A stretch of DNA of 44,891 nucleotides, taken from Candidatus Uhrbacteria bacterium RIFOXYB12_FULL_58_10. Its GTDB lineage: Bacteria; Patescibacteriota; Patescibacteriia; UBA9934; GWF2-40-263. Made by a program: the position numbers and the translations under genes. Below, one piece after another: positions 11,729 to 31,846 of the stretch. The notes under the pieces are model-generated. The model was not told where the DNA came from and searched no databases. It worked only from the letters and a program-made list of their open reading frames with translations. How positions within the stretch are numbered: position 1 is the stretch's first letter; every line of letters starts with the position of its first letter. The stretch is from positions 1-44,891 of the forward strand of contig CALRHL010000006.1 in NCBI GenBank assembly GCA_943359455.1, written 5' to 3'.

Positions 11729-12436
11729 TTACATCATTTTTGTGAAGGTAAGCTCTTCCTCCATATTGGTAGGTGTTATGAGATATTTCCAATAGGCTTC
11801 TTTTGTTGGAAACCATTCTTTCGCGACTTCTTCATCCACAATTGGCAAAAATGATTTTAATCCTGCGTAGGCTTTATGACTTGACCATACAAAACTATTG
11901 AGCAAAACCTTAGCTTTTTTCCAATCTGTTTTCTGCCCAGCTCGCCATTGAATATTTGTTCCATCAAGTGCGTTCAGATGAATATATCTTGGTAGGAGTT
12001 GTAGATGCTCCTTGAGATCAACCGGCTTTGCTTTAAACGGACTTTCGAATAACCTTCCCTCACGACTGTATCGTTTATTAAAATACTTCGCATAACCCAT
12101 CCCAACACGGTGTAAAAATTTTGAGATTCCATTTGGTTCCTTCTGTCGCAATAACATGTGGAAATGATTAGGAACCAAACAATAAGCAACAATACTCACG
12201 AGTGGGTCGCGATCAAAGGTAAAAAGTTCATGTCCAGCCAACGGAATATCACGCTGTATCACACGTCCGCCTTTATGCTTATAATTGGTATCATTAAAAA
12301 GATAAAGCGATTCACAAAATCTTCGAAAATCCCACTGATCAGAAAATAAAACACGTTTATCAACTCCACGATTATACACATGATAATAAGCTCTCGAGTC
12401 AAAAGGTTCTCTCATATACAACTCATAATACGCCAT
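11729..12436 (-). CDS. REP-associated tyrosine (Y1/HUH) transposase
   Basis: A 235-aa single-strand-specific transposase of the Y1_Tnp superfamily. YYHVYNRGVDKRVLF at the start is the family's N-terminal strand. VPNHFHMLL at residues 89-96 holds the metal-binding HUH pair (H91, H93). The helix GYAKYFNKRYSREGRLFE carries the candidate catalytic tyrosines Y115 and Y118, and RYIHLNAL follows. RAYT enzymes nick and join REP hairpins as single-stranded DNA. The palindromes on both sides are the likely substrate. The ATG at 12434 lies next to one REP and no strong ribosome-binding site is visible, so expression is probably low. Confidence 0.88.
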   Translation of the reverse strand: MAYYELYMREPFDSRAYYHVYNRGVDKRVLFSDQWDFRRFCESLYLFNDTNYKHKGGRVIQRDIPLAGHELFTFDRDPLVSIVAYCLVPNHFHMLLRQKEPNGISKFLHRVGMGYAKYFNKRYSREGRLFESPFKAKPVDLKEHLQLLPRYIHLNALDGTNIQWRAGQKTDWKKAKVLLNSFVWSSHKAYAGLKSFLPIVDEEVAKEWFPTKEAYWKYLITPTNMEEELTFTKMM

Positions 12437-15844: not shown

Positions 15845-15881
15845 TCTGGGCGTTGACAGATGCGATCTTTTTTGATGAGAT
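15842..15881 (+). promoter_or_regulatory. Hairpin-embedded promoter cassette of array gene 1
   Basis: GCATCTG (15842-15848)/CAGATGC (15857-15863) then a T run. TTGACA at 15853-15858 is in the loop and 3' arm, followed by a 17-bp spacer and a weak extended -10 TGA-TGAGAT (-10 at 15876-15881). No plus-strand gene ends here, so the hairpin is not needed for termination. A TTATAC at 15885 is an alternative -10. Confidence 0.5.
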
Positions 15882-15901
15882 CGATTATACGCAGGAGAAG
15901 A

Positions 15902-16675
15902 ATGAAAAAGAAAGAACGTGGTTATTGGCAAAAATGGGCAAATGTTGAAGCAACTCTTCGTGAAGTTGAAAAGCGAATTGGGAAATTCCCAACGTACCAA
16001 GATCTGCAAAAAAACGAACTAGCATCCCTTGCAAATGTCATCGTAACAAAATACGACGGCATGCAAGCAGTTCGTGCGCGCATGAATGTCGATGCCAATC
16101 GTTATCCTCGTGGCCATTGGCTCATTTGGGAAAACGTCGAGAAAAAAATGCGCGAGCTCGAAGGTGAGCTCGGTCATTGTCCGTCACACAAGGAGTTGCG
16201 CGACAAAGGTTTGTCGAGACTAAGTACAACGATCCTGAAAGTTCACGGCGGAACAGAGATTGTTCAACAGCGTCTTAAAATGACCGCGCACGAAGCCCCA
16301 AAAAATCACTGGCAGAAATGGGAAAATATCGAAATCGCTGTTCGAGAGTTAGAAAAAAAACTTGGACGCATTCCAAACACGGTAGATCTCTCTTCGAGCA
16401 ATCTAAACGGCGCACTCCAAGCCATTCAACGACACTTCGATGGATGGGCTGCAGTCTCAAAACGACTTGGATACGATCCAGTCTCTGATATGCTCATTGC
16501 ACAAAACGCAGACAACCTTGCAAGAATCATTCTCATTCTCCGAGTACCTACCGACAAACTCTGGCTTGTACTCAAGTCGCGCTGGGTCACTCGCGACCTC
16601 ACCGCCGCCATTGAAGAATTCTCTCGCAACGGATCTGTCGATCGGTTCCGTGACCTCTTAGACATGACCTCTTAG
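15902..16675 (+). CDS. Array repeat protein 1 (three 62-aa repeats plus tail)
   Basis: A 257-aa protein with three repeats, at about residues 1-62, 63-126 and 127-188. Each has the pattern W..W.N(V/I)E...RELE..LG..P....L....L...I....G....V..R. The conserved tail module follows (YDPVSDMLIAQNADNLA...VPTDKLW...DLTAAIEEF..NGSV.RF..LL). The repeats resemble the HNR 'homing-endonuclease-associated repeat' and other short helical nucleic-acid-binding repeats, which is an inference from pattern only. No nuclease motif is present. It starts at ATG 15902 after AGGAG. The stop codon is part of the next cassette's hairpin. Confidence 0.75.
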   Translation: MKKKERGYWQKWANVEATLREVEKRIGKFPTYQDLQKNELASLANVIVTKYDGMQAVRARMNVDANRYPRGHWLIWENVEKKMRELEGELGHCPSHKELRDKGLSRLSTTILKVHGGTEIVQQRLKMTAHEAPKNHWQKWENIEIAVRELEKKLGRIPNTVDLSSSNLNGALQAIQRHFDGWAAVSKRLGYDPVSDMLIAQNADNLARIILILRVPTDKLWLVLKSRWVTRDLTAAIEEFSRNGSVDRFRDLLDMTS

Positions 16676-16708
16676 ACGGTTGACACAGCCGTCTTTTTTT
16701 GTTACATT
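16673..16708 (+). promoter_or_regulatory. Stop/terminator/promoter overlap cassette
   Basis: AGACGG (16674-16679)/CCGTCT (16689-16694) plus a T run terminate array gene 1, whose TAG overlaps the stem. TTGACA (16680-16685) is the loop. After 17 bp comes TGT-TACATT, with the -10 at 16703-16708, for the next gene. Confidence 0.8.
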
Positions 16709-16746
16709 CTTCGCTTGTCGATATTCCGTCGACATGAGGAGAAAAA

Positions 16747-17127
16747 ATGATTGAGATTCTCAAGACTGGCAGTGAACACATGGATACAGAACCATCTCTC
16801 CCGCTCATGGGAATGATGAATAATACGCTCATAATCACAACCGAACTGATCGGTCCAAACAGAGAAGCGTACGCAGTCGGCACATGGGCACTTGTCCGAC
16901 TTGGTGGACAGCTGTTCCTCATTGAAAGCGACCTGACGAGTCCTGATCACAACGGAACACATGTCCGCATTTCGCCAGCAACACACATGTTGCTGAGCAA
17001 ACGACTCGAGGATGCAGAAATCGTCCTCGCTCAAACTCTGGAAAGAGGAATCCAAGAGGATGACATCGAGCAAAACATCCAATACTGGCGCGAAGCTCTC
17101 GAACTCTTTATGACACAAGACGGCTAA
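16747..17127 (+). CDS. Small acidic protein, unknown function
   Basis: A 126-aa protein. The first 70 residues look beta-rich (NTLIITTELIGPNREAYAVGTWALVRLGGQLFLIESDL). The C-terminus is helical and acidic (SKRLEDAEIVLAQTLERGIQEDDIEQ). It has no signal peptide and none of the array repeat. GAGGAG precedes the ATG. It is transcribed from the same cassette type as the array genes and lies between array gene 1 and the helicase-methyltransferase gene, so it may be a partner in the same system. Confidence 0.65.
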   Translation: MIEILKTGSEHMDTEPSLPLMGMMNNTLIITTELIGPNREAYAVGTWALVRLGGQLFLIESDLTSPDHNGTHVRISPATHMLLSKRLEDAEIVLAQTLERGIQEDDIEQNIQYWREALELFMTQDG

Positions 17128-17194
17128 AATCCCACTCGACGGGATTATCATCGAGCTCAGCTCGATTGACACAGCCGTCTTTTTTTGTTACTGT
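17118..17194 (+). promoter_or_regulatory. Three-way-junction terminator with embedded promoter
   Basis: The outer stem AGACGGCT (17118-17125)/AGCCGTCT (17173-17180) closes two inner hairpins, AATCCC/GGGATT (17128-17146) and ATCGAGCT/AGCTCGAT (17150-17166), before a T run. TTGACA (17166-17171) begins inside the junction. 17 bp later is TGT-TACTGT (-10 at 17189-17194) for the helicase gene. The outer left arm is the end of the upstream coding region. Confidence 0.75.
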
Positions 17195-17232: not shown

Positions 17233-20200
17233 ATGGATTTCAACACCATTGAGACAGAAGGACGCCCGGCGTTTCGGCGGGCGAGTCAGACGGATCGGTT
17301 GATCCTTCTGAACATTACGGAACCACCGTTGCGTGCGCGCTTTCATCGTCACCTTGTTGAAGTGAGCGGCGTGGTGTTCTTGCCAGAAGAAGTTGACCAG
17401 ACGGCGTTCGATCAACTCATGATGACGGATGAGGAATTGCGTGCGTACGTAGAAGATCCACGTACCGATCCCTGTCTCATTGCAGAATACTTATTGCGCC
17501 GGCATCCAGAACTGTTCATCGCATTCGAGCAGGTGTATCAAGTGATTGTGGATTACAAAATCCGCCATTGCAAACGAACGCTTACTCCTGAGTCAGATCG
17601 AATCAACGAAGGACGACCTCCACTTCCGCGCGATTTCTATGAGCGGATGAGTGAAGACAACATCACGATGTGTGTGAAGCGTCAGATTCGTTCTGATGTG
17701 CGCGCATTCAATCGTGATGCTGACGGATATCTCGCGAAGCTGAAAAGCGACGCGGAAAACGCCGAAGATGCAAGCGAACGAAAAATCGCTGAACTTCTTT
17801 CGCAACTCTTCGGCTCCCTACGCGAAATGCATTTTCCTGCATTCCATGAACACATCAAAGGATCGGAAACCCCGTTCCCATCGATGCATGTGCGTGTGTG
17901 GATCAAGCAAATTCTTGAACGGGGAAGTGCGCTTATCTGTGGAGACGTCGGAACGCAAAAAACGTCGGCCGCAATTATCGGACTACACGAACTTGGTGCG
18001 AAACGCACTGTGGTCGTCTGTCGTTCATATGCGCGAGGGCTCGTGTGGGAACCGGAAATTCCGGTTTATTTCAAGGAAGCTCCGCCTGTGCTCAAGCTCG
18101 AAGGAATCAACGACCTGCGTCGACTTGAAAGCATGAGTACAGGTGAACTTCGCGAATTCCGTTACTTGCTCGTTGGTTATGGTGACTTGCAGAGTGTAAA
18201 CGCAGACCGATGGGTGAAAGCGATCGAACGCTATCATGCAGACGCCATCATCATCGACGAAGCACACGCGATCAACCACGATGTAGCGCGTACGGCACGT
18301 GTGATCGCTCTTTCGCAGCATGCGACGATCAAGCATCGCATCATGCTTACGGCCACACCGTTTGAAAACCATCCAAACGAAGCGGCAAACATGGCGATGA
18401 TCCTCGACCCAAAGGCGTATCCAACACAGGCGCATTTCGATGCGTACATCAACGATCATCCGCGGGTATTCTTTGGCCTCATGAGTAAGATCATGTGCGT
18501 ATACTTCGCCTCCGATGAAGTGCTCGATCTCCCACCGTGCAATATGGAACGTCTCGCGGCGTTCCCAACGGTAGAAATTGAACCTTCCTACGCAGCAAAA
18601 TACGTACACGACCTGATCCGTTACGATAGCTCGCACTTTCAAACGACGCTGATCCAACGTATGGCTCAAGTGAGCACCTGTCCGTATCTCGGACGAAACT
18701 GGTATCAGTATCCAGCCGAAGTAAACGGGTATTTCCGCGACCCAGAAAAGAGCGACAAGCTCATGTGGGTGAAGCGCGAAATCGAAGCGCGCATTGCAAC
18801 AGGAAAAATTGTTGTTGCCTCAGGGCTTTTTGCTTCCGGAGTGACACATGAAGTCGAAGGGGCAGAAGACGATGAAACAGAATACGTCGTCGTTGATCAG
18901 CTTCGTCGCTGGTTTGGAAAAGACGCTGTTGTACACATCGATGGCACCATGGCTGTTTCAGATGACATCGACATTGACGAAACTCGTACGGCGGTTATCA
19001 ACCGCTGGAAAAACGACGATCGTGTGCGCATCGCGGTCATCTCCGTACAGGCCGCAGCGGAAAGTTTCAACATGACCCTTGTGCGCAAGCCGGGTGTTGT
19101 CGAGAAACTCACGATTCTCGTCCTGGCACTTGGGTGGAAGCCAACTCAGCTCCACCAGTTCATTGGGAGATTCCGTCGACCAGGAATGGAAGTTCCGACC
19201 GAGGTTCTCATCGCAATTCTGAAAGGACTTGTCGATGAAGCGTTTCTGAAGATGAATCAACTCAAGTGGCGTAACTTCCTGATGGGTGTTCAGATGATCC
19301 CCCTCCAAGAAGATGAGACCAAAGCTCTCGAGAAACGAATCACTTCAAAATATCTCGACACCGACGACCGTTGGCTTATTGATGTCCTTGCTAAAGTACG
19401 TGGTGCCGGGGAACAAAAGGCGATGCGCTTTCTTGATGGGATGTTCCGAGAACGTGTGGCAGGAAAAACGTTCGCGCGCATCTATCTCGAGAACGAAGAT
19501 TTCTCGCTTTCCGGTGACGTCGCTCGATTCCTCGCTCAGGTGTACAAGCCTTGGCTCAAGGAACGGAAAATCACCGCGGAGAATATTCTTGATGCGGCGT
19601 GTGGCATTCTCATGTTGGAACGTCGACTCGGAGAACCAGTTTACGGAATCGACATGAATCCGTGGATGGTTGAGACAGGCCGCGAGCACAGTTACCAAGG
19701 TGGCAAAAACGCCATCGTGGGACGGCTCTCAGAACTGCCAGAGGAATGGAACGGAAAGTTCCGTCTCACCGTCTGCTCGCTCGCGCTTCATTGGAGCACG
19801 AACAAAGGAAAGGGAATGAGCGAACGGCTCAAAATCCTCGAAGGTCTTGCGCGAGTTACGGCGCAGGACGGTCTCATTCATCTCACTCTGCCCCCATCCT
19901 GCTTCTCAGAAGTGATGATTGGAGAATGGACAGACGCGCTCGTAGGCCTTGGACTTGAACGTGTGAACGAGATGACAGGACTTGTCGAAACACGCGACTT
20001 TGCCGACAACCCACGCACCTTCTGGTCTGTGTGTCTACGCAAAGTTGGAGAGACGAATGCCGAAGAAGTCGACCAAACAGCGCTTTTCTTTGCAGACGAG
20101 CGCAAGCGGATGACGGACACGGTGAACGTCGCTCCAAAGCGGAACGGAACTCCGGCTCAACCGGTTCCTCCTGCGCATGTGAAGCATGAAGCATTCGTGG

Positions 20201-20505
20201 TTCTGACCGACGAAGGGGCGCAAACCCCAGAAGCGGTGTCGATCGCGGTTGCGAAAAAGTGCTTCGCAGAAGAGGTGATGTGGTACCGGCCATTCATTGC
20301 CGAGATGCGCCGCCAATTCCGTCCGAATGAACACTGGCTCGCAGAGTTTGAAGCAGAGCTCGAGCGGATTCGCCCGCAAAAGCTCACAGACTTCTCCAAA
20401 GTCTGGAACAATGTCTTCAAAAACGCAGGCGCTCCCAAAATCAAACGCGCAACCCTCCGCGCCCTGGCCAACCAAGCCATGCGCGCGACTGGACTGACTC
20501 CGTAA
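17233..20505 (+). CDS. SNF2-like helicase fused to a SAM methyltransferase
   Basis: A 1090-aa protein. After a 200-residue N-terminal region comes an SF2/SNF2-like ATPase: motif I GDVGTQKTSAA near residue 237 (a variant of GxGxGKT), motif II IIIDEAH near 340, motif III LTATPFEN near 372, and motif VI QLHQFIGRFRRPG near 640. A class I methyltransferase domain follows, with LDAACGI near 785 (motif I), an acidic D of GIDMNPWM near 806, and WSTNKGKGM. The 100-residue C-terminus is helical. No NPPY/DPPY motif is visible, so the target may be RNA, protein or a non-adenine base. I chose ATG 17233; upstream TTGs overlap the promoter. Helicase-methyltransferase fusions are known in phage-defence and mobile-element contexts, but the function here is open. 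Confidence 0.75.
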   Translation: MDFNTIETEGRPAFRRASQTDRLILLNITEPPLRARFHRHLVEVSGVVFLPEEVDQTAFDQLMMTDEELRAYVEDPRTDPCLIAEYLLRRHPELFIAFEQVYQVIVDYKIRHCKRTLTPESDRINEGRPPLPRDFYERMSEDNITMCVKRQIRSDVRAFNRDADGYLAKLKSDAENAEDASERKIAELLSQLFGSLREMHFPAFHEHIKGSETPFPSMHVRVWIKQILERGSALICGDVGTQKTSAAIIGLHELGAKRTVVVCRSYARGLVWEPEIPVYFKEAPPVLKLEGINDLRRLESMSTGELREFRYLLVGYGDLQSVNADRWVKAIERYHADAIIIDEAHAINHDVARTARVIALSQHATIKHRIMLTATPFENHPNEAANMAMILDPKAYPTQAHFDAYINDHPRVFFGLMSKIMCVYFASDEVLDLPPCNMERLAAFPTVEIEPSYAAKYVHDLIRYDSSHFQTTLIQRMAQVSTCPYLGRNWYQYPAEVNGYFRDPEKSDKLMWVKREIEARIATGKIVVASGLFASGVTHEVEGAEDDETEYVVVDQLRRWFGKDAVVHIDGTMAVSDDIDIDETRTAVINRWKNDDRVRIAVISVQAAAESFNMTLVRKPGVVEKLTILVLALGWKPTQLHQFIGRFRRPGMEVPTEVLIAILKGLVDEAFLKMNQLKWRNFLMGVQMIPLQEDETKALEKRITSKYLDTDDRWLIDVLAKVRGAGEQKAMRFLDGMFRERVAGKTFARIYLENEDFSLSGDVARFLAQVYKPWLKERKITAENILDAACGILMLERRLGEPVYGIDMNPWMVETGREHSYQGGKNAIVGRLSELPEEWNGKFRLTVCSLALHWSTNKGKGMSERLKILEGLARVTAQDGLIHLTLPPSCFSEVMIGEWTDALVGLGLERVNEMTGLVETRDFADNPRTFWSVCLRKVGETNAEEVDQTALFFADERKRMTDTVNVAPKRNGTPAQPVPPAHVKHEAFVVLTDEGAQTPEAVSIAVAKKCFAEEVMWYRPFIAEMRRQFRPNEHWLAEFEAELERIRPQKLTDFSKVWNNVFKNAGAPKIKRATLRALANQAMRATGLTP

Positions 20506-20581: not shown

Positions 20582-21391
20582 ATGCCATACATTCGACCGC
20601 GTCGTGAACGATCTAGCCAAATCAGGCGACCACGAGTTCCACGTGGTCATTGGAAAAAATGGGAAAACGTCGAACGTGTTATCCGTGAGCTTGAGAAAAA
20701 ATTGGGACATTTTCCCACACATCAAGAACTCCAGACAAACGGATACTCCGCACTCGCGAACGCCATCAAGAAGCAGTACGACGGAATGCCTGGATTGCGT
20801 AAAAAAATGTTTGTGCCTGCGACAACTGTGGACCACGGTCACTGGTTGCAATGGGAAAATGTTGAAAAGGTTCTTCGTGATTTTAAAAAGCACGAAGGAC
20901 ATTATCCAAGTTATCAGGACCTTCAACGTGTAGGACGTGGATCTGTCGCAAGCGCGATCGTCAGTCATTTTGGAGGGATGGCAGCGATGCGCGAAAGGCT
21001 TAATGCAAAACAAACGCGATTCCCAAATGGATATTGGAAGAACGTAGAACATATAGAACGAGCGATTCTCGCATTACGAGATTCACTCGGTCATGTTCCA
21101 TCGATTACAGAAATTGGGAAGGAAAGTAATGCTCTCAAAATCGGCATTATGCGTTTTCATAAAGGATGGAATCAGGTCAAACAAATTCTTGATCTCGTCT
21201 CAATTTCAGACGATCTTCTCGTCTCAAACGCCAACGAACTTGCACAGATCATAATCGAGCTCAATGTGCCGACAGATCGGTTCTGGTCAGTGATGAAGGA
21301 ACGCTGGGTCGTGCGAGATCTCACTGTGGCGATTGAGGAGTTCATGAAAACGGGATCGGTGGAACGGTTTCGAACGCTACTGGACGGTTAA
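20582..21391 (+). CDS. Array repeat protein 2 (three repeats plus tail)
   Basis: A 269-aa protein. A basic leader (MPYIRPRRERSSQIRRPR) is followed by three repeats (GHWKKWENVERVIRELEKKL..., GHWLQWENVEKVLRDFKK..., GYWKNVEHIERAILALRDSL...) and the tail with NANELAQIIIELNVPTDRFW and RDLTVAIEEFMKTGSVERFR. The basic leader would suit nucleic-acid binding. Repeat 3 has the most divergent second half. GGGGGA precedes the ATG. The coding 3' end forms the left arm of its terminator. Confidence 0.75.
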   Translation: MPYIRPRRERSSQIRRPRVPRGHWKKWENVERVIRELEKKLGHFPTHQELQTNGYSALANAIKKQYDGMPGLRKKMFVPATTVDHGHWLQWENVEKVLRDFKKHEGHYPSYQDLQRVGRGSVASAIVSHFGGMAAMRERLNAKQTRFPNGYWKNVEHIERAILALRDSLGHVPSITEIGKESNALKIGIMRFHKGWNQVKQILDLVSISDDLLVSNANELAQIIIELNVPTDRFWSVMKERWVVRDLTVAIEEFMKTGSVERFRTLLDG

Positions 21392-21492: not shown

Positions 21493-22644
21493 ATGTATCA
21501 ACGAATAATAGAAGAAAGATTGATCCGATACCTTTTTCATGGCAAGATCGTGATCCTGTATGGACCGCGCCAGGTAGGAAAGACGACCTTAGTAAAAAAA
21601 CTTGTTGAACAATATGACGGGGCGTATTTTCTTTGTGAAGAGCCGGATGTGAATGAAGCGCTTACGAATAAAACATCAACGGAAATGAAAGCGTTTTTAG
21701 GAAATAAAAAATTGATCGTTTTAGACGAAGCACAAAAAATTCAGAATATTGGTACGAGTCTGAAATTACTGATTGATACATATCCGGATTTACAAATTAT
21801 CGCCACAGGGTCCTCAAGTTTTGATCTCGCGAACAAGATTAACGAGCCACTCACTGGGAGAAATTATGAGGTACGGATGTATCCACTATCGATAGAAGAG
21901 ATTGTGTCAAAATATTCAGAACTTGAAGTAAGAAGACTGCTCGAACGATTGATGATTTACGGTACATATCCAGGGGTTTTAGACGCAGGTGAACTTATAG
22001 AGGAGAATTTAAAAAAAATAACAAACGATTATTTATATAAAGACTTACTTGGATACAACGGCATTCGTAAACCAGATCTCCTTCAGAAAATTCTTAAAGC
22101 GCTCGCTTTTCAAGTAGGGAACGAGGTTTCCTATGCGGAGATCGCACAATCGGTTCAAGCAAACAAGGAGACCGTAAGAAGTTATATTGATATTCTAGAA
22201 AAAGCCTTTATTGTGTTTCGATTATTTCCGTTGCATAAAAATAAACGAGATGAAGTTAAGTCTCACCATAAAATATTTTTTTTCGACAACGGTATTCTGA
22301 ATACGTTGCTTCAAAATTATCATGGATTAGATTCACGTGATGATATCGGGAGGTTATTTGAAAACTTTTTTGTTGCTGAAAAGATAAAACAACGAAGTAA
22401 TTACTCGCTCAATGGCTCTGTTTATTTTTGGCGTAAACAAAAGGGAGGTGAAGTAGACTTTATTGAAGAAACTGATGGAGGAAATGTCTACCGAGCATTT
22501 GAGTGTAAGTATACAAAGCCTCGAGCCAAACTTCCCACCCTTTTTTCTGACTTGTATCATCCAGAATCGTTTACTGTTATTACAAAGAATTCTCTTGTGC
22601 CACATTTCGTTTCCACAAATGTCCATCCATCTACGAACAGTTGA
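21493..22644 (+). CDS. AAA ATPase with C-terminal DUF4143 domain
   Basis: A 383-aa protein of the widespread AAA_14/DUF4143 family. Walker A is GPRQVGKTT (residues 24-32), Walker B KLIVLDEAQ (near 78), sensor IATGSSSFDL and then PLSIEEI. The C-terminal part has a winged-helix-like stretch (ISYAEIAQ-type, here VSYAEIAQSVQANKETVRSYIDIL) and the DUF4143 nuclease-like end with GGEVDFIEE and FECKYT, reminiscent of PD-(D/E)xK folds (D, ExK). The biological role of the family is not established. The gene is clearly more AT-rich than its neighbours and splits array genes 2 and 3, so it was probably inserted. Confidence 0.85.
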   Translation: MYQRIIEERLIRYLFHGKIVILYGPRQVGKTTLVKKLVEQYDGAYFLCEEPDVNEALTNKTSTEMKAFLGNKKLIVLDEAQKIQNIGTSLKLLIDTYPDLQIIATGSSSFDLANKINEPLTGRNYEVRMYPLSIEEIVSKYSELEVRRLLERLMIYGTYPGVLDAGELIEENLKKITNDYLYKDLLGYNGIRKPDLLQKILKALAFQVGNEVSYAEIAQSVQANKETVRSYIDILEKAFIVFRLFPLHKNKRDEVKSHHKIFFFDNGILNTLLQNYHGLDSRDDIGRLFENFFVAEKIKQRSNYSLNGSVYFWRKQKGGEVDFIEETDGGNVYRAFECKYTKPRAKLPTLFSDLYHPESFTVITKNSLVPHFVSTNVHPSTNS

Positions 22645-22710: not shown

Positions 22711-22735
22711 CACTGCCTGCTCTTTGGAGGAACAC

Positions 22736-23683
22736 ATGGGAAAGCTACAGAATCCGTATCAGACATGGGAGGCAGCAGAACCACGTCTGCGAGAGATCAT
22801 AACAAAAATTGGAAAGTATCCATCTTCACGAGATCTTTATCGACTCAATGAAAATTCGTTAAGGCATGCAATCGAAACGTATCATGGCGGTTCATATGTC
22901 GTACGTGATCGAATGAAAATAGCACAGGTGAAGGTCTGTAGTGGAACGTGGCAAGATCTCGATCAGGTCATAACAAAACTACTTGAGATCAAAAAAATAA
23001 TTGGTCATTTCCCGACTGCACATGAGTTGTATGAACTCGGTTACTCAGGACTGTCCTCGGCGATCAGTAACAAACTTGGTGGTTTCCAAACGATACGCGA
23101 TCTACTGGCAGAAGAAACCATCAGACAACCCAAAGGTAAATGGTCAAACATTGAAGCCGTCAACGCAAAACTTCGTGAAATCGCGAAAGAATTGGGTTAT
23201 TTTCCAAGAATAGTTGATCTAAAAGCACGCCATCTAAATGGACTCATCCGTGCCATATCAACTCAATTCGGTGGATTTCACAAAGTTGCCAAACTGCTTG
23301 GATACAAACCTACTCGACACTTGCGTGGATACTGGAACGTTTGGGAAAATGTCGAAGCTGAACTCCAAATTCTCATCGACAAACTCGGGCACTTCCCAAA
23401 TCCTGATGAATTCAATAACGAATGGACTCTACGAAACAGAATCGGAAGACATGGTGGATTCGCGGTTGTACGCGAAAAGATGGGCTACGGACCAATCACC
23501 GACACCTACCTCAGCACCCACGCCAATGACCTCGCACAGATCGTGATCGAGCTCGGCGTGCCGACGGATCGGTTCTGGTCTGTGATGAAAGAGCGATGGG
23601 TTGTGCTGGATCTCACCACAGCGATTGAGAAGTTCAAACAAACAAAATCGCTGGATCTGTTCCAGGCGTTACTGGACAGTTGA
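22736..23683 (+). CDS. Array repeat protein 3 (four repeats plus tail)
   Basis: A 315-aa protein with four repeats: YQTWEAAEPRLREIITKIGKYPS..., GTWQDLDQVITKLLEIKKIIGHFPT..., GKWSNIEAVNAKLREIAKELGYFPR... and GYWNVWENVEAELQILIDKLGHFPN.... The tail is YGPITD...HANDLAQIVIELGVPTDRFW, with an atypical end (KFKQTKSLDLFQALLDS). The start is ATG 22736 after GGAGG. The first three repeats have lost part of the W..WENVE signature while keeping the LG.FP core. The TGA stop is part of the next gene's -35. Confidence 0.75.
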   Translation: MGKLQNPYQTWEAAEPRLREIITKIGKYPSSRDLYRLNENSLRHAIETYHGGSYVVRDRMKIAQVKVCSGTWQDLDQVITKLLEIKKIIGHFPTAHELYELGYSGLSSAISNKLGGFQTIRDLLAEETIRQPKGKWSNIEAVNAKLREIAKELGYFPRIVDLKARHLNGLIRAISTQFGGFHKVAKLLGYKPTRHLRGYWNVWENVEAELQILIDKLGHFPNPDEFNNEWTLRNRIGRHGGFAVVREKMGYGPITDTYLSTHANDLAQIVIELGVPTDRFWSVMKERWVVLDLTTAIEKFKQTKSLDLFQALLDS

Positions 23684-23708
23684 CGAGACTGTCCTTTTTT
23701 GTTACGGT
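23673..23708 (+). promoter_or_regulatory. Stop/terminator/promoter overlap cassette
   Basis: GGACAGT (23674-23680)/ACTGTCC (23688-23694) then six T. The coding end is the left arm, and the stop TGA (23681-23683) is inside TTGACG (23680-23685). 17 bp later is TGT-TACGGT (-10 at 23703-23708). This is the cleanest example of the triple overlap. Confidence 0.88.
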
Positions 23709-23731
23709 CATTTTCCATTCAAGGAGACGGA

Positions 23732-24520
23732 ATGGAGACTTTTGAGGAGGTTGAAAAAGCTCTTCGTGTAATCATGACTGAACTTGATGGAAGATTTCCG
23801 ACGCCAGCTGAATTACGGCGCCTTGGAAAACACACGCTCGTTCGTGCGATCATTTCTAAGTGGGGTGGTTTTCCTGAAGTTCGTAAACGCATGGGAATCA
23901 AATACCTCCGCATTCCATATGGCTCCTGGCGGAATGTCGCATACGCTGAAGAAAAAATGCGAGAAGCGATTCGTCGAAACAACGGGCAATTTCCTACCTC
24001 ATCAGAACTACGTGATCTTAAATGCAGTAGTCTCGAAGTTTCTATTACCACGTATCATGGTGGCCTAATAGAAATGAAAAAACGAATGGGATATCACGAC
24101 CCCCCAAGTGAACCCATCGTGGATCTAACGTTACGCAAACAACCCAAAAAAGTCTGGACCGAGTGGAGAAATGTAGAGGAAGGAATCAATGAGATCATCA
24201 CAGTTCTTGACGGACTCTTTCCAACCCAAAGAGACTTGAATCGCCTGGGCCACTCTGGTCTTTCGGATGCAATCGCCAAAAGATACAACGGCATCATCTC
24301 TGTTCGTAATCGCATGGGGTATGAACCAGTCACCGACAATCTCCTCGCCACAAATGCCAACGATCTCGCCCAGATCGTGATCGAGCTCGGCGTGCCAACA
24401 GATCGGTTCTGGACCACGATGAAGAAGCATTGGGTCGTGCGAGATCTCAACGTGGCACTTGAGGAATTCAAACAGACGGAGTCGGTGGAGCGATTTCGGA
24501 CACTTCTGGACAGCTTGTAG
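23732..24520 (+). CDS. Array repeat protein 4 (three repeats plus tail)
   Basis: A 262-aa protein. It starts directly in a repeat (METFEEVEKALRVIMTELDGRFPT) that lacks the leading W..W half. A second repeat begins GSWRNVAYAEEKMREA, and a third, after a 20-residue spacer, WTEWRNVEEGINEIITVLDGLFPT. The tail is TDNLLATNANDLAQIVIELG with FKQTESVERFRTLLDSL. Repeats 1 and 3 have one extra residue before FP (LDGRFPT, LDGLFPT). ATG 23732 follows AAGGAG. Confidence 0.75.
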   Translation: METFEEVEKALRVIMTELDGRFPTPAELRRLGKHTLVRAIISKWGGFPEVRKRMGIKYLRIPYGSWRNVAYAEEKMREAIRRNNGQFPTSSELRDLKCSSLEVSITTYHGGLIEMKKRMGYHDPPSEPIVDLTLRKQPKKVWTEWRNVEEGINEIITVLDGLFPTQRDLNRLGHSGLSDAIAKRYNGIISVRNRMGYEPVTDNLLATNANDLAQIVIELGVPTDRFWTTMKKHWVVRDLNVALEEFKQTESVERFRTLLDSL

Positions 24521-24576
24521 TCCCGTTGACAGAGCGCTACTGGACAGTTGACGAGACTGTCCTTTTTTGTTACGGT
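24521..24576 (+). promoter_or_regulatory. Double cassette with a vestigial gene end
   Basis: After the TAG of array gene 4 comes a TTGACA (24526-24531), then CGCTACTGGACAGTTGA (24535-24551). That is the 3' end of another array gene (Thr/Leu-Leu-Asp-Ser-stop) without its body. It forms a hairpin GGACAGT/ACTGTCC around TTGACG (24548-24553), followed by a T run and TGT-TACGGT (-10 at 24571-24576). Confidence 0.8.
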
Positions 24577-24615
24577 CCTGTTCTGTTCTTTACAACTTCT
24601 GGAGGAGAAAAACAC

Positions 24616-25572
24616 ATGAGGAAAAAGAAACTATCCAAAAGTGAAAATTGGGACGATTTTGAAAAGGTTGCTGAGCGTATGCGCCAAGTCCAAAAAGCGC
24701 TTGGGCATTTTCCATCCCGTGCAGAATTGAGAGTTTACGATTCACAATTGGATTCTGCGATCAATAGGTACGGTGGAATCATTCCAGTGCGTAAACGCAT
24801 GGGAATTCAAGAAGGGTGGGAACTCAAACCTATTGATCACTGGAAAACACGGAAAGCCGTACTGGATGAGCTGAAAAACCTTGTCTCTGAACTCGGTCAC
24901 TTTCCAACAAGAACTGAGATGACCGACCGACATCTTTCCACTCTCGTCTTGGCAATGTCAAAATTAGGTGGGTCTCGTTCATTTCGTGTGAAATTCGCCT
25001 TCTCTATACCAAAGGTACCAAATGGACACTGGGATGACTTTGCAAACATTGAACGCATTTTAACTCCGCTCATCAAGAAGCTTGGGCACTTTCCAAGTGA
25101 AGATGAGTTAGCTCTCAATGGATTACTATCAATCGGAAACGCGTTCAAAAAACATGGAGGTGTGAATCGTGTTCGTGAAAGACTTGGTTCCCCTATCCTT
25201 CGTGTTTGTAAACACGACTGGTCTGATGTCGAGCAAAACGTAATCAATCTTGCAAAAAGAATTGGTCACTTCCCTACGCAATCTGATCTTAACAAGTATG
25301 GCTTAAAAGGGGCGATAAACCACATCTACAAAACGTATGGTGGAATCATCAAACTGAGAGACCAACTTGGGTACGGTCCCATCACCGACAATCTCCTTGC
25401 CACTCACGCAAACGATCTTGCCCAGATCGTGATCAAGCTCAGTGTGCCGACGGATCGGTTCTGGGCCACAATGAAAGAACGCTGGGTTGTGCGGGATCTC
25501 ACCGCGGCGATCGGGGAGTACAAGGAGACGGGATCGGTGGAGCGGTTTCGTACGCTACTGGACGGTGAGTGA
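24616..25572 (+). CDS. Array repeat protein 5 (four repeats plus tail)
   Basis: A 318-aa protein with four repeats: ENWDDFEKVAERMRQVQKALGHFPS..., RKAVLDELKNLVSELGHFPT..., GHWDDFANIERILTPLIKKLGHFPS... and HDWSDVEQNVINLAKRIGHFPT.... The tail is YGPITDNLLATHANDLAQIVIKLSVPTDRFW...IGEYKETGSVERFRTLLDG. The LGHFP core is invariant in all four while flanking positions vary. ATG 24616 follows a strong GGAGGAG. The end of the gene forms the left arm of the next terminator. Confidence 0.75.
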   Translation: MRKKKLSKSENWDDFEKVAERMRQVQKALGHFPSRAELRVYDSQLDSAINRYGGIIPVRKRMGIQEGWELKPIDHWKTRKAVLDELKNLVSELGHFPTRTEMTDRHLSTLVLAMSKLGGSRSFRVKFAFSIPKVPNGHWDDFANIERILTPLIKKLGHFPSEDELALNGLLSIGNAFKKHGGVNRVRERLGSPILRVCKHDWSDVEQNVINLAKRIGHFPTQSDLNKYGLKGAINHIYKTYGGIIKLRDQLGYGPITDNLLATHANDLAQIVIKLSVPTDRFWATMKERWVVRDLTAAIGEYKETGSVERFRTLLDGE

Positions 25573-25616
25573 TCGAGCTGAGCTCGATTGACACAACTGT
25601 CCTTTTTTGTTACGGT
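25560..25616 (+). promoter_or_regulatory. Branched stop/terminator/promoter cassette
   Basis: The outer stem GGACGGT (25560-25566)/ACTGTCC (25596-25602) encloses ATCGAGCT/AGCTCGAT (25572-25588). TTGACA is at 25588-25593 and TGT-TACGGT has its -10 at 25611-25616. The inner ATCGAGCTnAGCTCGATTGACACA block is shared with the cassette at 17150-17173. Confidence 0.85.
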
Positions 25617-25649
25617 CGTGTGCTGTTCCTTTCACAATGGATCAAAAAA

Positions 25650-26621
25650 ATGAGAACGCAAGGAGTTCGTGAAAAACCAAAAGGCTACTGGAAAAAATGG
25701 GAAAACGTTGAGGGTGAGGCTCGTGTGATTATTGCAAAACATGGCGAGTTGCTTGGAGCTCCTGCTCTGAATAAACTTGGTTATAGTTCATTCGTTCTTG
25801 CTTGTTTCAACTACCACAACGGAATGAATGATGTCCGTACTCGTCTCGGTCTTCCTATCATTCGAAGAGAGAATGGTTGGACAGATGAAAGTACAGACAT
25901 GCTCGATCAGGAACTTTCAGTGATAACAGAACGGCTTGGGCATTTTCCGTCTTGTCCTGAGCTGAAAAAAAATGGATATGGTGACTTGCTCAGTGCGATT
26001 GGTCGAACGGGTGGAGTCCGAAAAGCACGACAACGTGCTGGAATAACCCGGCGTATTCGAGATGAATTCTCTTGGACAATGGAGCAACAGATTCTCGATG
26101 CCCTTCGTCCATTGGTTTACAAACTTGGAAGAATGCCAAAGAAATCAGAATACATAACTGCTAGACTAGGTGGGTTGTATGCAGCAATTTCTGACAGGTT
26201 CGACATTCAACAAATCGCAAAGAAGCTTTGCGTTGGTTTCCAACGTGTCTCCCCAGGAGGTTGGAGTGACTGGTCGCTTGTTGAGAAAGAACTCAAGGAG
26301 ATTCTCCAGTCAGAAAGTAGTTTTCCAACACACAGCATTCTGATCAAAAGAAAAAGACCTTCACTTTCACGAGCTATCGTCCGATACCATGGTGGTTACG
26401 AGCTCGTGCGTGAAAAGATGGGCTTCAACCCGATCACCGACAATCTCCTTGCCACGAATGCCAACGATCTTGCGCAGATCGTGATCGAGCTCGGTGTACC
26501 GACGGATCCGTTCTGGTCTGTCATGAAAGCTCGGTGGGTCGTGCGAGATCTCACGGCGGCGATCGAGGAGTTCAGGGGGACAGGATCGGTGGAGCGGTTT
26601 CGGACGTTGCTCAACGCATAA
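25650..26621 (+). CDS. Array repeat protein 6 (four repeats plus tail)
   Basis: A 323-aa protein. It begins MRTQGVREKPKGYWKKWENVE. The first repeat has a degenerate core (KHGELLGAPAL in place of LGHFPS). The second keeps LGHFPS, the third has LGRMPK, and the fourth is partly decayed (SESSFPT). The tail is intact except for one Arg-to-Pro change (PTDPFW for PTDRFW). The start is ATG 25650, but no clear Shine-Dalgarno precedes it; the expected place holds ATGGATCAAAAAAATG, whose A7 run could be a slippage site. It may be a decaying or phase-variable member. Confidence 0.68.
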   Translation: MRTQGVREKPKGYWKKWENVEGEARVIIAKHGELLGAPALNKLGYSSFVLACFNYHNGMNDVRTRLGLPIIRRENGWTDESTDMLDQELSVITERLGHFPSCPELKKNGYGDLLSAIGRTGGVRKARQRAGITRRIRDEFSWTMEQQILDALRPLVYKLGRMPKKSEYITARLGGLYAAISDRFDIQQIAKKLCVGFQRVSPGGWSDWSLVEKELKEILQSESSFPTHSILIKRKRPSLSRAIVRYHGGYELVREKMGFNPITDNLLATNANDLAQIVIELGVPTDPFWSVMKARWVVRDLTAAIEEFRGTGSVERFRTLLNA

Positions 26622-26627
26622 ATTCTG

Positions 26628-26655
26628 ACCGATGATTTAAAATCATTGGTTTTTT
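26628..26655. terminator. Terminator between array gene 6 and the AbiE pair
   Basis: ACCGATGATTT/AAATCATTGGT with one G-T pair, then TTTTTT on the plus strand. The minus-strand toxin gene ends inside it. Confidence 0.75.
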
Positions 26656-28079: not shown

Positions 28080-28105
28080 GCTCCACGTGAGGATAGCGAA
28101 CTCTT

Positions 28106-28142
28106 GAGCTCGATTGACAAGGCCGTCCTATTTTGTTACGGT
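28106..28142 (+). promoter_or_regulatory. Array promoter cassette (gene 7)
   Basis: GAGCTCGATTGACA with the -35 at 28114-28119, 17 bp containing GGCCGTCC and a short T run, then TGT-TACGGT (-10 at 28137-28142). The left terminator arm is missing, as at 22682. Here too a foreign locus (abiE) separates the cassette from the previous array gene. Confidence 0.78.
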
Positions 28143-28187
28143 CTTTGCTTGCTTCAGGGTGAAGCGAGCACAAACGTTGGGGTTATC

Positions 28188-29696
28188 ATGTACGTAAAAA
28201 AGGTGTGCGTTGATGACGCGTGCCTGAAACGGCATGTGGATGTGTTGGCGAGGGTCGTTCTTTCGCTTGAGCTTACAGACACAGGTCTTTTTTGGAAAAA
28301 GATTCGGCTGTGGAGTGTGTCGACTCTGGAAGAAGCGATCGCTGAGTTTGAAAAAACGGGCGATACGCAAAAATTCCAAACTCAGATTTCACGAACCTCC
28401 GTGCCACAAGGACACTGGAACGACTTCGCGAATCTTGAACGCGAACTGCGTCCGATTGCACAACAACTTGGCCACATGCCTTCGATTCACTGGCTTTGGA
28501 AAAACAACGAGACGCGACTCATTAGTCCCATCAACAAATACGGTGGACCAGAGAACGTTGCGAAACGACTTGGTGTTCTATATACCCAGACGGATCGTGG
28601 GCAGTACACGCAATGGGAAAACGTTGAAGTGAAGTTGCGTGAGGTCATTATTCAACTGGGAGGAAAATTTCCTTCGGCAGGTGACTTGAAACGGTTAAAG
28701 CTCTCTTCACTCACGGGTGCCATCAACATCCATCATGACGGAATGATCGCTGTTCGAAAACGAATGGAGATTGGTGGAGGAAAACACGAGCATGGATACT
28801 GGGGTGATATCAAGAACGTAAAGCAGGAGCTGAAAGTTCTCGCAAAAACTCTTGGTCATTTTCCTGGTCATGACGAACTCAAAGAGCTTGGACATTCAAG
28901 TCTGAGTATCGCCATTGGAAACCACGGTGGAATCGCTGAGATTCGTGAACAGATGGGTCATGGACTTGGCCGTGGTCGACGCGCATGGGGACACTGGAAA
29001 GATTGGGACCGTGTCGAAGAAACGCTCCGACCAATCATTCAAGAACTTGGTCGTTTTCCAGAACGAGAAGAGTTCAGTGAACGCAGACTCGGTGGATTGC
29101 ACGCAGCACTCTCCGAATTCCATGATGGTGTCCCGGCTGTTCGTGAGCGACTGGGACTCGATCCGGTCTCCGTCACAAAAGGACACTGGGAAATGTGGGA
29201 GAATGTCGTCGTAGCTGTTCGTCAACTGGAAACCAAACTCAAACGCTTCCCGAGTTACCGTGACATGCAACAAAACGGGCGCAGTGGTCTTGTCACCGCC
29301 ATCCAACGTCACCATGGTGGAATGAACGGTTTGCGCAAACGTTTGTCGCAAGAACTCGACATCAAACCAATGGGCTATTGGCACCTGTGGGAAAATGTTG
29401 AGCGCGAACTGACAGTGGTCATCGAAAGAATCGGTCATTTTCCAAGACACGAAGAGTTGAATGCGTTGAAACTCAGCTCACTCTCAAACGCCATCCATCG
29501 CTTTGGTGGAATGAACGGTGTGAAAGAACGAACGGGCTACGCTTTGATCACAGATCGTGATATTCAACAACACGCGGATGTATTTGCAAGATACATCATC
29601 GAGCAAAACATCGTAAACACGGAGGGATTCTGGTACACCGTCAAAAAGAACTGGACGCGTCGAGATCTTGAAACCGCATTTGCCCCTCCTAGCTAG
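28188..29696 (+). CDS. Array repeat protein 7 (six repeats, tail module at both ends)
   Basis: A 502-aa protein, the largest member. The N-terminus (residues 1-65: MYVKKVCVDDACLKRHVDVLA...GLFWKKIRLWSVSTLEEAIAEFEKTGD) matches the tail module that ends the other paralogs. Six repeats follow, all with a recognisable LG.FP/LGHMP/LKRFP core and W..WENVE-type starts. A second tail (YALITDRDIQQHADVFARYII...TRRDLETAFAPPS) lacks the final EF..T.S..RF..LL part. The start is ATG 28188 with a modest GGGGTT upstream. The stop sits in the loop of a terminator. Confidence 0.75.
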   Translation: MYVKKVCVDDACLKRHVDVLARVVLSLELTDTGLFWKKIRLWSVSTLEEAIAEFEKTGDTQKFQTQISRTSVPQGHWNDFANLERELRPIAQQLGHMPSIHWLWKNNETRLISPINKYGGPENVAKRLGVLYTQTDRGQYTQWENVEVKLREVIIQLGGKFPSAGDLKRLKLSSLTGAINIHHDGMIAVRKRMEIGGGKHEHGYWGDIKNVKQELKVLAKTLGHFPGHDELKELGHSSLSIAIGNHGGIAEIREQMGHGLGRGRRAWGHWKDWDRVEETLRPIIQELGRFPEREEFSERRLGGLHAALSEFHDGVPAVRERLGLDPVSVTKGHWEMWENVVVAVRQLETKLKRFPSYRDMQQNGRSGLVTAIQRHHGGMNGLRKRLSQELDIKPMGYWHLWENVERELTVVIERIGHFPRHEELNALKLSSLSNAIHRFGGMNGVKERTGYALITDRDIQQHADVFARYIIEQNIVNTEGFWYTVKKNWTRRDLETAFAPPS

Positions 29697-29761: not shown

Positions 29762-30484
29762 GTGGGTTCTTCGCAATTGATCGACGGTGGTTTCTTTGCT
29801 CGTTCGGCGACGGACGTTGCGCGTGACCTGATCGGCTGTGCGCTCGTTCGGACACATCCGGACAAAAGTCGTAGTCGTGTTCTCATCATCTCGACCGAGG
29901 CGTTTGAGGATGGCGCGGAAAGCGGGATGCGTTCTGGAATGAAGCACGCACCAGGACAGCTGTTCATCATGTCCATGCGCGGACACAAGTTTCTGAACGT
30001 AGGAACGGATCGTGCGGGATTCGCAAGCTGTGTGATGATCCGTGGGATCATGGCAGGACGTGAACTCGTGGATGGACCAGGAAAAGTATCGACTCTGCTT
30101 GGAGTAGACACGCCGCTCGATGGAAAAATGATTGGTGCAGAAATCAGTTTCGCCCACTCTTCGATCAGCGTGAGCGGATTTCGAAACACCAACAACTCCG
30201 ATCGATCCAAAAATTCGGTCGGGAAGTTCCACCTCGATCCGGTCTGGAACGACTGGCTGAAGCGGATGCCGTTCGACCAAACGTTGATCGATGTCACACT
30301 CAAAGCTTCTTTCAAAGATCTTTGTCGAGAAATTCGCAAAAAGCACGGTGCAGAAAAGGAACGCGGATTCCGCACAATATTTCCCACGTGCAAATGGACC
30401 CAGGCTGAAGTCGTTCTCGCCTTGGACGAATTCCGCGACACGGATTCGATCGCTCCGTTCGAAAAACTGCTTGTGACGGGTTAA
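29762..30484 (+). CDS. mpg: 3-methyladenine DNA glycosylase (AAG family) with array-like tail
   Basis: A 240-aa protein. Residues about 9-135 match AAG glycosylases: GGFFARSATDVARDLIGCALV, IISTEAFEDGA with the catalytic Glu at 46, a HKFLNVGTD strand, and ELVDGPGKVSTLLGV (equivalent of the family's 'l.nGPGkLt.alGI'). Such enzymes remove alkylated purines, leaving abasic sites that endonuclease IV (nfo, at 32666) can cut. The last 65 residues replace the usual end and resemble the array tail module (W.QAEVVLALDEFRDTDSIAPFEKLL against W.VRDLTAAIEEF..TGSVERFRTLL). It starts at GTG 29762 after GGAGG. Confidence 0.82.
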   Translation: MGSSQLIDGGFFARSATDVARDLIGCALVRTHPDKSRSRVLIISTEAFEDGAESGMRSGMKHAPGQLFIMSMRGHKFLNVGTDRAGFASCVMIRGIMAGRELVDGPGKVSTLLGVDTPLDGKMIGAEISFAHSSISVSGFRNTNNSDRSKNSVGKFHLDPVWNDWLKRMPFDQTLIDVTLKASFKDLCREIRKKHGAEKERGFRTIFPTCKWTQAEVVLALDEFRDTDSIAPFEKLLVTG

Positions 30485-30556: not shown

Positions 30557-31846
30557 ATGATTACATCAACGATTGAAATTCTTCCAAAAAACTCCATAAA
30601 AATTACCGTCACGGTTCCGCACGACGATGTTCTTCCTCACCTCGATGACGCAGCAACGCGTATTTCGGAGCAGACTTCGATTCCAGGATTTCGTCCAGGA
30701 CGCGCGGGGTATGACGTCGTGAAGGCTCGTGTTGGTGAAATGAAAATTTATGAGGAGGCTTTGGAAACGGTCGTGCGTAAATCCTATGTAGACGCACTCA
30801 CCTTACACGACGTCGAAACGGTTGGATCACCAAAAATCGACATGGTGAAACTTGCGCCAGGAAACGATATTATTTTTACCGCCGAAGTCGCGCTCATGCC
30901 AAAAATTACAAAACTTGCTGACTGGCACACGCTTACAGCTGCGAAGCAATCCAGAGAGGTAGTCGATGCGGATATTGCAACAGCGCTCAAAGATTTACAA
31001 CGCATGCAAACAAAAGAAATCCGTGCTGAGTCAGACAAAACCGTCACGGCGATCGACAAAGCCGTTGTTTCCATGAACATGAAAAAAGGAGGTGTTCCTG
31101 TTGAGGGAGGACAATCACCAAATCATGCGGTCTATCTGACTGAGGATTACTACGTTCCTGGATTCAAAGAGCAGGTTGTTGGGATGAAAGAAGGAGAACA
31201 AAAAACATTCACTCTTACCTTCCCAGAAAATCACACGAGCAAATTTCTCGCAGGACATCCTGTTGAGTTTGATATTACGGTGAAAGAAATCTTTAAGCTT
31301 GAGCATCCAGAACTCGACGACGCGTTTGCAGCGTCTCTCGGACAAAAAGACATGGAAGCGTTGCGTGCCATATTGAAGAATAATATTTCTGGAGAAAAAG
31401 AAAACGAAGCAAAAGGACGTGAGGAACGCGAAATGCTCGAATTACTCTCAAAGGAATCCCGCTTCGACGACTTCCCAGATCTGCTCGTGAACGACGAAAT
31501 CAACAAGATGATTCACGAGCTTGAACAAGGAGCAACCGAGCAGGGAATGGAATTTCCGGAGTATCTGAAGTCAATCAAAAAAACAATCGCCGACCTCAAA
31601 ATAGAATTTACTCCTCAAGCCTTATTGCGTATTAAAGTCGCACTTATCTTGCGAGAGTTGATCAAATCCGAATCCATCGAACTCACCGAAAAAGAGGTCG
31701 ATGAAGCGCTCGACAAAATCGCCGAGAAACACGAAGATAAAGAATCTCGTGACCGTATCTATCATCCTGAATATCGAGGCTACGTCGAGTACACATTAAA
31801 AAATCGTAAAGCGATCGAAAAACTACGGGAGGCAATGGTAAAGTAA
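30557..31846 (+). CDS. tig: Trigger factor
   Basis: A 429-aa ribosome-associated chaperone and prolyl isomerase. The N-terminal ribosome-binding signature is SIPGFRPGRAGYDVV (residues about 41-55). The FKBP-like PPIase domain (about 150-245) includes YYVPGFKEQVVGMKEGEQKTFTLTFPENH. A long helical C-terminal chaperone domain follows. Length is normal. There is no clear Shine-Dalgarno before ATG 30557, and the leader is about 27 nt. No clpP/clpX follows; a bidirectional terminator closes the unit. Confidence 0.95.
   Translation: MITSTIEILPKNSIKITVTVPHDDVLPHLDDAATRISEQTSIPGFRPGRAGYDVVKARVGEMKIYEEALETVVRKSYVDALTLHDVETVGSPKIDMVKLAPGNDIIFTAEVALMPKITKLADWHTLTAAKQSREVVDADIATALKDLQRMQTKEIRAESDKTVTAIDKAVVSMNMKKGGVPVEGGQSPNHAVYLTEDYYVPGFKEQVVGMKEGEQKTFTLTFPENHTSKFLAGHPVEFDITVKEIFKLEHPELDDAFAASLGQKDMEALRAILKNNISGEKENEAKGREEREMLELLSKESRFDDFPDLLVNDEINKMIHELEQGATEQGMEFPEYLKSIKKTIADLKIEFTPQALLRIKVALILRELIKSESIELTEKEVDEALDKIAEKHEDKESRDRIYHPEYRGYVEYTLKNRKAIEKLREAMVK

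Follow-up and report, generated by a model that had tools for sequence, protein, structure and literature searches.

A SNF2 ATPase-methyltransferase fusion and its MPG-fold partner as the core of a putative DNA-targeting accessory system in Patescibacteria

DISARM, with its SNF2-like helicase and its methyltransferase, is among the described systems that most resemble the locus reported here, next to the Dpd and Dnd/Ssp systems. The PabI-type restriction glycosylases may be added by analogy, for the idea of a glycosylase and a methyltransferase forming an immune pair; restriction by base excision exists in another fold (PMC4615327, PMC10273834). Patescibacteria seldom carry CRISPR-Cas, and their resistance to viruses is poorly understood (PMC6509639, PMC4742961). 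The window, that is, the whole stretch of DNA analysed, comprises 44,891 nt of the forward strand of contig CALRHL010000006.1, from Candidatus Uhrbacteria bacterium RIFOXYB12_FULL_58_10 (GCA_943359455.1; 97.7% complete, 1.07 Mb). It encodes a fusion protein with the following features:

17233..20505, + strand: fusion of a SNF2-type ATPase and a Methyltransf_11-like domain, 1090 aa, uninterrupted ORF
aa 237-245: motif I, GDVGTQKTS
about aa 342-345: motif II, DEAH
aa 374-378: ATPFE
aa 642-647: QFIGRF
aa 786-791: methyltransferase motif I, LDAACG
aa 805-809: methyltransferase GxDxN

An earlier note, made from the letters alone, had described one chain of 1090 aa joining an SF2 helicase to a methyltransferase. 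The data bear this out: the reading frame is intact, and Pfam, the PDB profile search and the conserved motifs agree. Pfam gave SNF2-rel_dom (E 4.1e-10), and a profile made from nine fusion homologues matched Snf2 (1z63, 5.5e-12) as well as SAM methyltransferases (8rdl, 2.4e-5) in the PDB. The AlphaFold model resembles the ISWI, INO80 and Snf2h ATPases (Foldseek, E to 6e-15); its mean pLDDT is 67, and the methyltransferase part, at 31-83, is of low to moderate confidence. GD[VT]G..KT, DE, ATP and Q-F-x-GRF-R are all conserved in the alignment of the homologues. Motif I, which the note had singled out as unusual, keeps its Lys and Thr and follows the pattern GD[VT]G[TS][QY]KTS in every one of the nine homologues aligned. 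Going by its RecA-like lobes, P-loop Lys-Thr and motifs II, III and VI, the fusion classes as a SNF2-type SF2 ATPase, with a P-loop that is, by alignment, a derived variant and with a predicted ATPase activity. Since distant SNF2-methyltransferase fusions in other Patescibacteria have P-loops like DEMGLGKS, the GD[VT]G variant marks the clade of the fusion. Four fusions (G375, G151, G291 and G708), with a weaker SNF2-methyltransferase match, an ordinary P-loop and no gene for the MPG-like protein described below, were set apart from it. An in-frame TTG is present at 17185, but the ATG at 17233 is the better start because the TTG falls inside the promoter.

The methyltransferase part corresponds to a Methyltransf_11/25 domain at aa 785-882 (Pfam), with a Methyltransf_11 score near threshold (22.0 bits, cut-off 21.2) and a Methyltransf_25 match below threshold. 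LD[AG][AG]CG and GxDxN are conserved in the homologues, and motif I together with the acidic end of beta-2 assigns this part, on sequence criteria, to the class I SAM-dependent methyltransferases. Neither the DNA-amino signature (D/N/S)PP(Y/F/W) nor the C5 motif PC was found in the homologue alignment, where the region of motif IV reads LTVCSLALHW or LTVSSMVLDW. Having no NPPY or PC motif, the domain does not fall into the N6-adenine, N4-cytosine or C5-cytosine DNA methyltransferase classes, and ordinary DNA methylation can therefore not be assumed. The substrate may be a flipped base, an already modified base, or something else.

PADLOC, NCBIfam and Pfam gave no system match; the similarity to DrmD and DpdE is weak, confined to the helicase and far under the cut-offs. 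The earlier note had conceived of an undescribed modification or defence system. The word 'undescribed' stands, because the PADLOC and NCBIfam similarity is of this kind; on the whole the reading is partly borne out, the missing DNA-amino and C5 methyltransferase motifs being one point at which it does not hold as stated. No description of the gene combination was found in the open-licence full-text literature, an absence that is weak evidence. The likeness to DISARM includes a DrmD match of 1.3e-7 over the first helicase lobe, but its score is 30.3 bits for a cut-off of 610, and the methyltransferase of the fusion is of neither NPPY nor C5 type and is joined to the helicase. No DrmA, DrmB or DrmC was detected by PADLOC in the proteins scanned. 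For BREX, the similarity consisted only of the BrxH helicase (3e-5), with no PglZ or BrxC in the proteins scanned.

The comparison with Dpd and Dnd/Ssp involves a DGQHR protein (motif DDGQHR) encoded beside the fusion in five Uhrbacteria genomes. The SNF2 ATPase weakly resembles DpdE (1.2e-6), and the DGQHR protein weakly resembles DpdB (1e-5). Both lie far below what Dpd would demand (DpdB 24.6 bits, cut-off 300; DpdE far under its equivalog cut-off), and in contrast to Dpd the present system has a methyltransferase fusion and an MPG-fold partner. No DpdA-type transglycosylase or TGT-family gene lies near the fusion; one distant, housekeeping-like TGT gene was found per genome, and none in G085. 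The DGQHR protein is also weakly DndB-like (PF14072, 1.4e-5) and scores 61 bits with TIGR03187, for a cut-off of 59, but no DndC-, DndD- or DndE-type genes were seen at the loci. The same five loci encode a fast-evolving protein of 610-765 aa with no informative Pfam match, and neither this protein nor the DGQHR protein was found in the window genome. As for PabI, its HALFPIPE fold is unrelated (PMC10273834), and the PabI type has neither SNF2 motor nor repeat proteins.

Close homologues of the fusion (E 2.6e-81 or better) were found in 9 of 193 related genomes, and a distant one in 1. In wider samples, each including the window genome, there were 7 close homologues among 381 genomes of the class and 2 among 380 genomes of the phylum; the scarcity of close homologues in all three samples indicates that the fusion family is accessory. 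A profile scan of genome contigs yielded ten fusion loci, in Ca. Uhrbacteria and other Patescibacteria. The phage and plasmid sets (tblastn) and the viral contigs (profile scan) gave no match to the fusion, and peptide-pattern scans with P0001 only gave none in viral or genome contigs. The gene is sporadic, and no housekeeping remodeller, the outcome that the earlier note had asked to be checked, matched the fusion. A second gene follows the fusion closely across genomes:

29762..30484, + strand: MPG/AAG-fold DNA-glycosylase-like protein, 240 aa, constant partner of the fusion (Pfam PF02245, 1.5e-14)

This MPG-like gene occurs in exactly the same 9 of the 193 genomes (profile search, E 1.7e-26 or better), with a Fisher value of 1e-15, a statistic that ignores relatedness. 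The co-occurrence spans three host families, and no MPG-like gene was found in genomes carrying only distant SNF2-methyltransferase fusions. On loci with enough flank, two of them outside the 193-genome sample, the gene adjoins the fusion or lies at most 10 kb away (G000, G085, G133, G039, G041, G036, G321 and G304); G085 and G133 have the two genes as a minimal pair. The G032 fusion is broken across two contig ends, with the MPG-like gene behind the C-terminal part. G042 and G001 are fragmented assemblies in which the gene is on a separate contig from the fusion, next to a DGQHR gene and the trigger factor gene in the former, and to repeat genes in the latter. The constant partner is therefore this protein, overlooked in the earlier note, and not the repeat proteins, which the note had named as candidate recognition factors. 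The window protein scores 54 bits with PF02245 (cut-off 27), and the match over the fold places it, by profile, in the MPG/AAG family; its relatives score under the cut-off and were detected by profile. With AAG/MPG the group shares the fold signature, the GPGxxxxxLG block and an identifiable position for human AAG E125. It differs in that family members are about 20% identical to the window protein, in the addition of a tail shared with other proteins of the locus, and in a catalytic Glu that is not conserved across the group.

That array genes flank the fusion, as the earlier note had it, was confirmed; they are HNH_repeat genes:

15860..16675, + strand: HNH_repeat protein, 3 repeats and C-terminal tail
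20582..21391, + strand: HNH_repeat protein, 3 repeats and tail (AlphaFold: 4 helices per repeat, 5-helix tail, pLDDT 81)
22724..23683, + strand: HNH_repeat protein, 4 repeats and tail
23699..24520, + strand: HNH_repeat protein, 3 repeats and tail
24526..25572, + strand: HNH_repeat protein, 4 repeats and tail; true start probably downstream of 24526, past the promoter
25569..26621, + strand: HNH_repeat protein, 4 repeats and tail; true start probably downstream of 25569
28104..29696, + strand: HNH_repeat protein, 6 repeats, tail-like domain at each end

The seven proteins hold 27 repeats in the window. The four array proteins that were scanned score 30-49 bits with HNH_repeat (PF18780, cut-off 26), and Pfam found no HNH nuclease domain in them. 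A repeat profile search of the 193 genomes found such proteins in four, each of them one of the nine with the fusion (Fisher 2e-6 over all genomes, and 3e-4 within the family assuming 43 members, both uncorrected for relatedness). The co-occurrence that the earlier note had asked to be checked is thus there; as a constant part the repeat proteins fail, since five of the nine fusion genomes have none. The array is therefore an optional part. Within the repeat, positions W2, G21, P24, L29, L38, A41, I42, G47, G48 and R55 are conserved, and positions 26, 27, 30, 40, 43 and 50 are highly variable; a conserved scaffold with a few variable positions would be expected of modules reading different targets. 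In the model the repeats look like HTH-type helical modules. Foldseek on this model gave no reliable solved relative (noise only), and DNA binding by the repeats is for this reason something that we infer. The window genome has a further repeat protein, with seven repeats, at a second locus on contig C9, where a simple script found no DGR-type diversification near the reverse transcriptase.

Orphan proteins of about 125 aa end in a tail domain of some 50-65 aa, which is also found at the C-terminus of the repeat proteins and of the MPG-like proteins. A profile built from the orphan proteins was searched against 22 proteins; its E-values ranged from 5e-9 to 5e-5 for MPG-like proteins, and from 9e-9 to 1e-4 for repeat proteins encoded in G041 and G039. 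The window-type tail matched the MPG-like protein of G036 at 7e-5 and that of the window at 7e-4, which is weak. In G321, which is free of repeats, a 526-aa protein with two copies of the tail adjoins the fusion. The fusion itself has no detected copy of the tail, which makes it a natural candidate for the docking partner.

The fusion also shares its promoter with the array, again as the earlier note had proposed:

16747..17127, + strand: ORF of 126 aa, no assigned family, with its own array promoter copy at 16664-16726
17117..17186, + strand: terminator-like hairpin overlapping the fusion promoter, arms AAGACGGCT (17117-17125) and AGCCGTCTT (17173-17181), then a T run (from the fold)
17166..17194, + strand: fusion promoter, a copy of the array promoter element; TTGACA 17166-17171, 17-bp spacer, TACTGT 17189-17194

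The element is 63 nt long (TTGACA-N17-TACtGT), and is repeated ahead of the array genes. Most of its copies overlap the terminator-like hairpin of the preceding gene, so that the array genes seem to be individually terminated and restarted.

The explanation we prefer, with middling confidence, is that of an undescribed, horizontally exchanged accessory system of Patescibacteria that would target DNA, most likely in a modification-type conflict with viruses or plasmids. Sequence comparison shows a constant core of the fusion and the MPG-fold protein, with the repeat proteins, the orphan tail protein and the DGQHR protein as optional parts; the exchangeable repeat proteins are likely to be specificity factors, and for the system we infer a role in defence or modification. 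The common tail would let repeat and MPG-fold proteins dock to one and the same partner, probably the fusion, and the repeat proteins, as HTH-like helical modules with variable surface positions, would select where on the DNA this happens. ATP hydrolysis by the SNF2 module could then move or open the DNA, and the MPG-fold protein could flip a purine from the helix and read or present it. The Methyltransf_11-like domain would act on the presented or already modified base, the outcome being either self-marking or damage to foreign DNA. A more specific version, which we regard as tentative, is that an AAG/MPG fold was recruited as a non-hydrolytic base-flipper or exchanger for an SNF2-driven methyltransferase system of immunity or marking, its target set by an expandable array of repeats plugged in by their tails. 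If so, a two-gene core with swappable repeat proteins would constitute a programmable DNA-recognition device for Patescibacteria, and a repair-glycosylase fold would have been recruited into DNA modification. In favour of the preferred explanation are the matching distribution and the proximity of the fusion and MPG-like genes, the confinement of repeats to fusion genomes, the shared tail, the DGQHR protein of five genomes, the clustering of variable positions in a few repeat columns and, as described below, the variable island site with its TA pair and DUF4143 ATPase, the mixed-family clades of the fusion tree and purifying selection. No nuclease or known defence effector was identified, which counts against it.

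The small samples, the relatedness of the genomes and the weak match between the tail and the MPG-like protein of the window (E 7e-4) were likewise counted against the preferred explanation, as were the lack of a detected tail on the fusion, the lack of a solved structural relative for the repeats, the missing array in five of the nine fusion genomes and the location of one repeat protein at another locus.

Among the alternatives, base-excision restriction survives best, and even this we consider unlikely. By analogy with R.PabI, which excises unmethylated adenine, the MPG-fold protein would be a glycosylase excising a foreign purine at sites chosen by the repeats, with the SNF2 module assisting and methylation by the fusion protecting self. 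The MPG fold, found by Pfam and by PDB profile, and the precedent in another fold both speak for it. So does the equivalent of E125, retained as Glu in G000, G001, G133, G039 and G041 and present in the window protein (STEAF). However, the position is D in G036, G042 and G032, Q in G085 and G304, and K in G321, the Q and K proteins having an acidic residue two positions earlier; the E125Q variant of human AAG is the one seen with a flipped base in crystal structure 1EWN. With E, D, Q or K at the catalytic position, obligate base excision cannot be assumed, and AAG-type hydrolysis as a requirement for the group appears doubtful. The fusion methyltransferase, with no NPPY or PC motif, also argues against this alternative.

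The remaining alternatives are best judged from the genomic setting, for which a conserved gene serves as anchor:

30557..31846, + strand: trigger factor, conserved anchor of a variable island site

In the family of the window the system sits upstream of the trigger factor gene. At this site, the H+-pyrophosphatase and trigger factor genes of G020 directly adjoin, with nothing between, and G015 and G025 have other cassettes with HATPase_c_3 (GHKL-type) ATPases; G007 has a similar cassette. The site is a variable island, which in the window also includes an AbiEi/AbiEii (TA) pair and a DUF4143 ATPase. A sequence-directed regulator, in which the repeats would guide a remodeller-like SNF2 motor to promoters, and in which regulation, not defence, would be the task of the methyltransferase and MPG parts, could account for the nearness of the SNF2 model to remodellers and for the resemblance of the repeats to HTH-type modules. 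Sporadic distribution, horizontal exchange and a variable island beside TA genes make it quite improbable, and bacteria, being nucleosome-free, scarcely need a remodeller. Still less probable is a cassette for the repair of alkylation or base damage, made of MPG-like glycosylase, SNF2 translocase and accessory methyltransferase: MPG is a repair family and lies here beside SNF2, but occurrence is very patchy, the catalytic residue varies, and the genes are linked with DGQHR proteins, with repeat arrays that expand and with further variable cassettes. Least probable of all, if by little, is that the fusion is a functionally unlinked passenger in a homing-endonuclease-type or phage-derived array, as the annotation of PF18780 from homing endonucleases and the unrelated cargo of the island might suggest, against which stand the identical distribution of the fusion and the MPG-like gene over three host families, the common tail and promoter element, the lack of an HNH nuclease domain in the scanned array proteins, and the lack of close matches in phage, plasmid or viral sets.

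The horizontal exchange that forms part of the preferred accessory-system explanation was examined in the fusion tree. It separates G000, G001 and G321 from the rest in two clades (100/100), each mixing host families, so that families f1 and f25 are on both sides. The MPG-like protein of G321 is closest to that of G085 (48%), and its fusion to that of G000 (39%). Together, the mixed-family clades and the mismatch of the partners in G321 indicate horizontal exchange and partner reassortment. Between G036 and G042, the dN/dS ratio was 0.06 for the fusion, 0.13 for the MPG-like gene, 0.07 for the DGQHR gene, 0.17 for the small protein and 0.24 for the protein of unknown family; by these sequence estimates (0.06-0.24), all five gene pairs are under purifying selection.

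Besides the array of HNH-repeat proteins and the SNF2-methyltransferase fusion, the window carries the following genes within or near the island:

11729-12436 (-), IS200-like transposase (Y1_Tnp, REP-type), close to the island edge
21493-22644, DUF4143/AAA_14 ATPase, between array genes
26643-28012 (-), AbiEii toxin/AbiEi antitoxin-like pair, within the array but on the opposite strand

The ATPase matches PADLOC PDC-S01, a candidate defence family, at 2e-134. Compound terminator-promoter elements, in which the -35 box falls in or beside the loop of the upstream gene's terminator hairpin, were located at window positions 16664, 17150, 22666, 23666, 24532, 25572 and 28098.

A broader family of SNF2 + Methyltransf_11 fusions, 1188 to 1555 aa long, was observed in other Patescibacteria, at four of the loci studied:

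L049, 6801-11468
L050, 8908-12474
L051, 8672-12658
L052, 8018-11617

In all four the P-loop is ordinary and the methylpurine-glycosylase-fold (MPG-like) partner is absent; downstream of the L050 fusion, similar-looking proteins form a small array.

The 610-765 aa protein family adjoining the fusion gave no informative Pfam match. Shorter, distant relatives lie near the same chromosomal site in fusion-less genomes. The family and these relatives were placed as follows:

L022, 4439-6421
L128, 8527-9279
L129, 5282-6907
L133, 8042-8872

At the variable position upstream of the trigger factor gene, other Uhrbacteria carry a cassette that includes a GHKL (HATPase_c_3) ATPase and, after it, a gene of unknown function, which looks like an alternative island type:

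L131, 1852-5803
L133, 1724-5286
L134, 1662-5114

On another contig of the window's own genome (L102, 5063-11736), a further repeat protein was found, with seven repeats and the tail. Upstream of it are a MoxR-like AAA ATPase, a VWA protein and a retron-like reverse transcriptase, whose match to the retron_St85 profile (5e-44) falls under the profile's cut-off. This is possibly another defence locus built with the repeat family of the window array.
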